Below, one piece after another: positions 53,666-53,852 of a DNA stretch of 64,000 bases (position 1 is its first letter; every line of letters starts with the position of its first letter). A program made the position numbers and the translations under genes. The notes beneath the pieces were generated by a model. That model worked only from the letters and a program-made list of their open reading frames with translations. It made no database searches and had not been told where the DNA came from. The stretch covers positions 13,037,885-13,101,884 of the forward strand of contig NC_092029.1 in assembly GCF_042242105.1 (NCBI RefSeq). Direction: 5' to 3'. Origin of the DNA: Pempheris klunzingeri (Eukaryota > Chordata > Actinopteri > Acropomatiformes > Pempheridae).

Positions 53666-53852
53666 TCATCCAGCCATGTTGAAGAGCTTGTGGCTGAGCT
53701 CTGAGGGCAGAGAGAAGAAGAGCAGAGCCAGGAAGAGCAGCCCCAGCACAGCAGCCAGCAGCAGGGCACAGTGCAGCCTGTAGTGCCTCCAGGTCAGGAT
53801 ACACACCGTCCTCAATGGGCTCAGCAGCCACAACATGCTGTCACTGGGACGG
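53666..53852 (-). CDS. otof: otof terminal exon C: third, divergent transmembrane-anchor exon
   Basis: After a CAG acceptor the exon reads C|CGT CCC..., which completes AA|C from exon 59614-59714 and gives N-R-P, exactly as the other two terminal exons do. It encodes 61 residues: [16 protein letters not shown], then WRHYRL, a hydrophobic helix ([20 protein letters not shown]) and the tail [13 protein letters not shown], then TGA. The W-LSPL and W--YR spacing matches exons A and B, but the GYLVKK-LGA ending is lost. An AATAAA lies 88 nt downstream. Mammalian otoferlin is known for two alternative last exons; a third is not known to me. It could also be a decaying duplicate, but it has no stop or frameshift. 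Confidence 0.7.

Follow-up and report, generated by a model that had tools for sequence, protein, structure and literature searches.

How many membrane anchors can a single otoferlin gene encode? Mammalian OTOF is reported to have two alternative terminal exons, exon 47 for the brain anchor (TMD2) and exon 48 for the cochlear anchor (TMD1) (PMC10394277, PMC7768390). These anchors are known from RNA, while their distribution at the level of protein and cell awaits confirmation and their purpose is open; hearing is impaired by a deletion within the cochlear anchor, one with a bearing on endoplasmic reticulum targeting (PMC10394277). The otoferlin protein is reported to be tail-anchored and to depend on the TRC40 pathway for its targeting (PMC10751786). 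The stretch of fish DNA analyzed here (64,000 nucleotides, hereafter the window; contig C18, positions 13037885 to 13101884) carries the 3' part of otoferlin on its minus strand, and a sequence-only reading had proposed that a third interchangeable anchor exon lies 3.7 kb beyond the second terminal exon (57563 to 53852). We compared that exon with otoferlin and with the other ferlins by searches of the window and of the whole genome (646 Mb, 439 contigs). The sequence evidence makes it probable that the otoferlin gene of the window has in it a third alternative last exon that functions, although several observations pull in other directions. The features discussed are collected in Table 1.

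Table 1. Otoferlin 3' features, neighboring features, and the ferlin end exons matched by the third exon (identity and E value from the genome tblastn search with the third exon)
Feature	Position	Strand	Identity to third exon	E value	Details
Tandem 99-nt otoferlin exon pair	62508-62410 and 62191-62093	-			Donors at 62409 and 62092
Penultimate otoferlin exon	59614..59714	-			Shared donor CCGAA/GTAAGA, intron from 59613; donor 6.64 bits (consensus matrix)
First terminal exon (WHNYRW)	59027..59207	-	about 36-37%	1.1e-5	181 nt, ends VKKILGA-stop; Pfam Ferlin_C 52.0 bits
Second terminal exon (CNRYKW)	57563..57743	-	33%	0.003	181 nt, ends VKKLLGA-stop; Pfam Ferlin_C 42.8 bits
Third-exon acceptor	53853..53882	-			GCTGTCTAACCTGTGACTCTCTCTGTGCAG; branch-point-like CTAAC, no AG between CTAAC and splice site
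Third candidate terminal (anchor) exon	53666..53852	-			187 nt, 62 residues, ends SHKLFNMAG-stop (translation, Ferlin_C, tblastn)
Third-exon poly(A) signal AATAAA	53573..53578	-			First base 88 nt past last base of stop
drc1-like gene, 3' end	52966..53540	+			Stop about 52966-52968; first AATAAA after stop 53535-53540
drc1-like gene, upstream piece	49488-49904	+			Pfam NYD-SP28, 3.1e-16
C10 end exon	26575727		40%	4.9e-8	
C2 end exon	21543637		39%	3.3e-6	
C20 end exon			37%	8.2e-5	
C12 end exon			37%	3.2e-4	
C23 end exon			36%	0.003	
C13 otoferlin terminal exons (three)	19157882-19157702, 19156485-19156305, 19155422-19155242	-	30-31%	0.005 to 0.4	Tandem, AG acceptors, open frames

The third exon is real as sequence, being open and in the right phase, with a good acceptor and an AATAAA of its own. 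The exon that ends at 59614 contributes two bases (AA) to the next codon and can be joined in phase to 59207, 57743, and 53852, and translation reaches a stop by each route. The same translation reproduced the coordinates, lengths, splice phase, and junction that the sequence-only reading had given for the three terminal exons, and its further statements that the third exon has a separate poly(A) signal, a hydrophobic helix, and a differing lumenal tail (SHKLFNMAG against VKKxLGA) held up equally well. The best 19-residue stretch of that helix scores 2.95 on the Kyte-Doolittle scale, near the 2.89 and 3.12 of the other two anchors. We take the first terminal exon to be the counterpart of mammalian exon 47, the brain type, and the second that of exon 48, the cochlear type, from their resemblance to the mammalian sequences. 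Scored with a consensus matrix, the third acceptor reaches 8.85 bits, compared with 3.58 for the first exon and 7.58 for the second, and ranks third among the 263 minus-strand AG sites between 53000 and 57562. Both an in-phase acceptor downstream of otoferlin on the same strand and a dedicated poly(A) signal are present. The GC content at third codon positions (GC3) is 0.81, close to that of the first exon (0.82) and the second (0.88), and the flanks have a GC content of 0.40 to 0.49. Diverged direct repeats of 31 to 33 nt occur at 54420-55050, in the interval that separates the second exon from the third.

Sequence comparison indicates that the ferlin likeness of the third exon goes beyond chance. 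The exon scores 39.1 bits on the Pfam Ferlin_C profile (PF16165), whose curated cut-off is 29.4, covering profile positions 98 to 153 of 154, about the same stretch as the first exon (98 to 154) and the second (98 to 153). It matches the first terminal exon with an E value of 1.2e-10 in a tblastn search of the window plus four 10-kb loci, and a search of PDB sequences (E up to 10) returned one distinct sequence, dysferlin, at 6.8e-05. Genome-wide tblastn with the third exon (E up to 10) gave 11 places including itself, all of them ferlin end exons (Table 1); all 11 were scored, and no second copy of the third exon was found among them. The sequence-only reading had pointed to the splice phase, junction, and core that the exon has in common with otoferlin's known anchors. 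These are indeed there, but the phase, the RP junction, and the W...P core are common to the third exon and the ten other ferlin end exons of the genome, and they therefore mark a ferlin rather than an otoferlin origin. A finer division comes from the intron that may follow ..LP. There is none from ..LP to the stop in the third exon, in the otoferlin exons, or in the C10 and C2 exons, whose genes we take to be of the fer1l4/fer1l6 type (the other ferlins, too, are named here by resemblance), whereas the type I-like end exons on C12, C20, and C23 have a GT immediately after ..LP or ..FP. As a divider of type I from type II this intron is one seen only in these genes, and by it the third exon has the structure of a type II last exon. 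The type II ferlins are otoferlin, Fer1l4, and Fer1l6 (PMC7140416). These comparisons support an intact ferlin membrane-anchor exon that is compatible with otoferlin splicing, and to that extent the proposal of a third otoferlin anchor stands. Its otoferlin origin is plausible from position; by sequence the closest matches are the C10 and C2 end exons.

Those matches bear on a different explanation: a type II (fer1l4/fer1l6-like) ferlin gene formerly sat between otoferlin and drc1, has since vanished, and left this last exon behind. The exon would then owe its intact state to a recent loss, or otoferlin would read it only by accident. We regard this as unlikely. Its second line of evidence is a tree of 11 ferlin end exons (the third exon, five otoferlin anchors, C10, C2, and three type I-like exons), in which the five otoferlin anchors form one starred clade (99/99) with the third exon outside, and the best topology groups the third exon with C10 and C2 (76/99, not starred). 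The third-exon branch is very long, however, at 1.61 changes per column, which makes this placement uncertain. Forcing the third exon into the otoferlin anchor group costs 2.96 log units and is not rejected (p-AU 0.184); forcing it to be the sister of the first terminal exon alone costs 7.20 log units (p-AU 0.048). Nor do the alignment columns, as far as residue sharing can tell, show a group preference: over 49 columns the third exon shares 23 residues with otoferlin (n = 5), 23 with C10/C2 (n = 2), and 24 with type I (n = 3), and in 18 of the 49 its residue is seen in no other group. Of the nine residues that never vary among the ten other ferlin exons, the third exon keeps six and has replaced three (F to L, K to R, and Y to F). 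The VKKxLGA lumenal tail has no counterpart in it, which is not decisive, since that tail marks the known anchors and not the otoferlin gene.

A vanished ferlin gene might have left other traces. The window was searched by tblastn with seven otoferlin exons (E up to 1) and four anchors (E up to 10), and beyond otoferlin's own these queries revealed no other ferlin exon, either in the interval from 57562 to 53853 or in the rest of the window. The best match in that interval besides the third exon (E value of 0.069) was on the opposite strand and contained an internal stop. Each of the seven otoferlin exon queries also matched its C10 counterpart (E values of 3e-27 to 6e-14), and a fer1l4/fer1l6-like remnant in fair shape should therefore have appeared. 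A remnant tandem ferlin gene behind otoferlin was accordingly rejected, as far as the otoferlin queries reach, and the separate gene that the sequence-only reading had considered did not come to light upstream of the third exon. On its other side the exon faces a plus-strand gene that we presume to be drc1, its pieces being presumptively joined as one gene. The poly(A) signals of the drc1-like gene (53535) and of the third exon (53578) start 43 nt apart, tail to tail, and the third exon stands alone between the two genes at this border. Human OTOF and DRC1 are likewise convergent neighbors. Elsewhere on the plus strand of the window are open frames at 37036-37602 and 7715-7999, which we take, by resemblance only, for ostm1 and an snx3-like PX domain.

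The exon is not a recent copy of its neighbors. The first and second terminal exons are recognizable DNA duplicates, 72 to 80% identical over the repeats found, but as sources of the third exon both were rejected, with no shared direct repeat of at least 30 nt and protein identities of about 36-37% and 33%. The third exon may thus descend from an early otoferlin exon or have come from a related type II ferlin. An ancient origin is probable, because the exon's divergence from the otoferlin anchors is about that of the fer1l4/fer1l6-type exons.

The rates of change bear on whether the exon is still in use. In a codon model the branch-specific omega of the third exon was estimated at 0.28 or 0.20 on two topologies, with a background of 0.07. 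An omega of 1 on that branch was not rejected (likelihood ratio statistics of 3.02 and 2.78, 1 d.f., p about 0.09), and neither was the background value (3.22 and 0.95). Differences at codon positions 1, 2, and 3 number 33, 19, and 32 between the third and first exons and 28, 24, and 30 between the third exon and C10, with no excess at third positions; C10 and the first exon, which are both taken as functional, show no such excess either when compared with each other (29, 18, and 33). Neutral simulations, assuming 0.6 to 0.78 substitutions per codon as the codon model with a neutral branch requires, left a frame without a stop or frameshift with a probability of 0.002 to 0.046 over eight settings, a range that depends on the assumed indel rates; the absence of a stop alone, without assumed indels, has a probability of 0.29 to 0.38. 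It is conceivable, but distinctly improbable in our estimation, that the exon is a formerly functional otoferlin exon that is now unused and decaying. Its fast branch fits such a history, as do an omega estimate some three to four times the background with neutrality not rejected and the lack of a counterpart in the second otoferlin copy described below. Against it, the exon has no disabling change, a good acceptor, and a GC3 like that of its neighbors, and the test does not reject the background rate for it either. The intact frame and GC3 argue against a long decay, and function may have been lost recently. Taken together, the frame, GC3, omega, and kept residues favor, without proving, a functional third exon.

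It is very improbable that the third exon ends a small gene of its own, such as one encoding a free anchor peptide from an internal methionine (MLWLLSPL...), or that it is an untranslated tail exon of transcripts whose coding part closes with the first or the second exon. There are an in-frame ATG and an open frame of 66 residues, candidate donors follow the first stop (8.0 bits, 300 nt) and the second stop (4.98 bits, 64 nt), and mammalian exon 48 is untranslated when exon 47 is used (PMC10394277), but the ferlin match includes residues ahead of the internal methionine, and purely untranslated use would not preserve the frame.

A second otoferlin copy, on contig C13, provides a parallel in anchor number; two copies also fit the sequence-only reading of the DNA as that of a fish. 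The three tandem terminal exons of the C13 copy belong without exception to the cochlear type, with identities of 75, 69, and 63% to the second terminal exon of the window. Nei-Gojobori omega is 0.19 for the first and second exons, 0.21 for the first and third, and 0.40 for the second and third, which differ by 6.2 synonymous changes and 8.8 others, all as point estimates to which no significance is attached. An AATAAA follows the third C13 exon by 457 nt; after the first and second, ATTAAA alone occurs before the next exon, at 510 and 725 nt and at 324, 668, and 745 nt, respectively. No brain-type terminal exon was found at this copy (C13:19155001-19165000 and the tblastn loci), and no counterpart of the third exon of the window was found in the 20 kb downstream or in the genome search. 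The anchors of the C13 copy multiplied by duplication, which makes a third anchor in the C18 copy more plausible.

The C18 gene also varies further upstream. The tandem 99-nt exons (dN 0.19, dS 1.34) are two versions of one exon in the last C2 domain, presumably C2F, and are candidates for mutually exclusive use; one version was found in the 10 kb searched at the C13 copy. We suggest tentatively, as somewhat short of an even prospect, that otoferlin in this fish is modular: its two genes would hold six anchors (brain, cochlear, and divergent third on C18; three cochlear on C13), with a swappable C2 exon pair on C18 as well, and hair cells and neurons could combine calcium-sensor and anchor variants. 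The top loops of C2F are predicted to lie near the otoferlin anchor (PMC10751786).

Weighing these observations, we return to a functional third alternative last exon as the preferred reading. It is supported by the Ferlin_C match, the type II last-exon structure, the phase and acceptor, GC3, the omega of 0.20 to 0.28, the intact frame, the isolation of the exon, its 3' border with the drc1-like gene, and the triple anchors of the C13 copy. Counted against it are that neutrality is not rejected, that third positions show no excess, that the C10 and C2 exons are the best matches and its neighbors in the best tree, that the absence of a stop is by itself unremarkable under neutrality, that the C13 copy lacks a counterpart, and that three of nine invariant residues are lost; in addition, human otoferlin is not known to have a third terminal exon. 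We infer its splicing, expression, and effect as follows. The otoferlin pre-mRNA would extend past the first two terminal exons, whose acceptors or poly(A) sites would be skipped, the donor after 59614 would be spliced to 53852, and the transcript would end at the AATAAA at 53578. The product would keep its C2 domains and gain a different tail anchor. This third anchor lacks the lysine near the start of the helix, as do those of C10 and C2, and its lumenal tail has a net charge of 0, compared with +2 in the other two (GYLVKKxLGA). By analogy with the mammalian exon 47 and 48 anchors, the likely effect would be on membrane targeting or insertion, or on helix packing.

If this is true, the third anchor, naturally occurring and neutral in its lumenal tail, would together with a sister gene carrying three cochlear-type anchors provide a comparison for anchor function, and any gene model or rescue construct of fish otoferlin that has a single tail would omit part of the protein. 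A third otoferlin anchor exon is not mentioned in the available portions of PMC10394277, PMC7768390, PMC7140416, PMC1851013, PMC2923515, PMC10751786, PMC6776657, and PMC10227054, which does not establish it as unpublished.

Three known arrangements resemble the one described here. The end exons of the fer1l4/fer1l6-type genes have the highest identity to the third exon (C10 and C2; Table 1), with an LLFLALLF stretch and, in C10, an S.K..N-like tail in common, but they belong to other genes. The C13 otoferlin copy likewise has three tandem last exons in one gene, although all three are of the cochlear type and the third exon of the window is only distantly similar to them (Table 1). Mammalian OTOF exons 47 and 48 occupy the same position in the gene, encode a tail anchor of about 60 residues, and offer a choice between last coding exons (PMC10394277, PMC7768390), and exon 48 follows exon 47 in one mRNA as untranslated sequence (PMC10394277). 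In contrast to the mammalian gene, the fish otoferlin gene has a third such exon, which is two residues longer, has a tail without KK..LGA, and does not fall clearly in the otoferlin clade.
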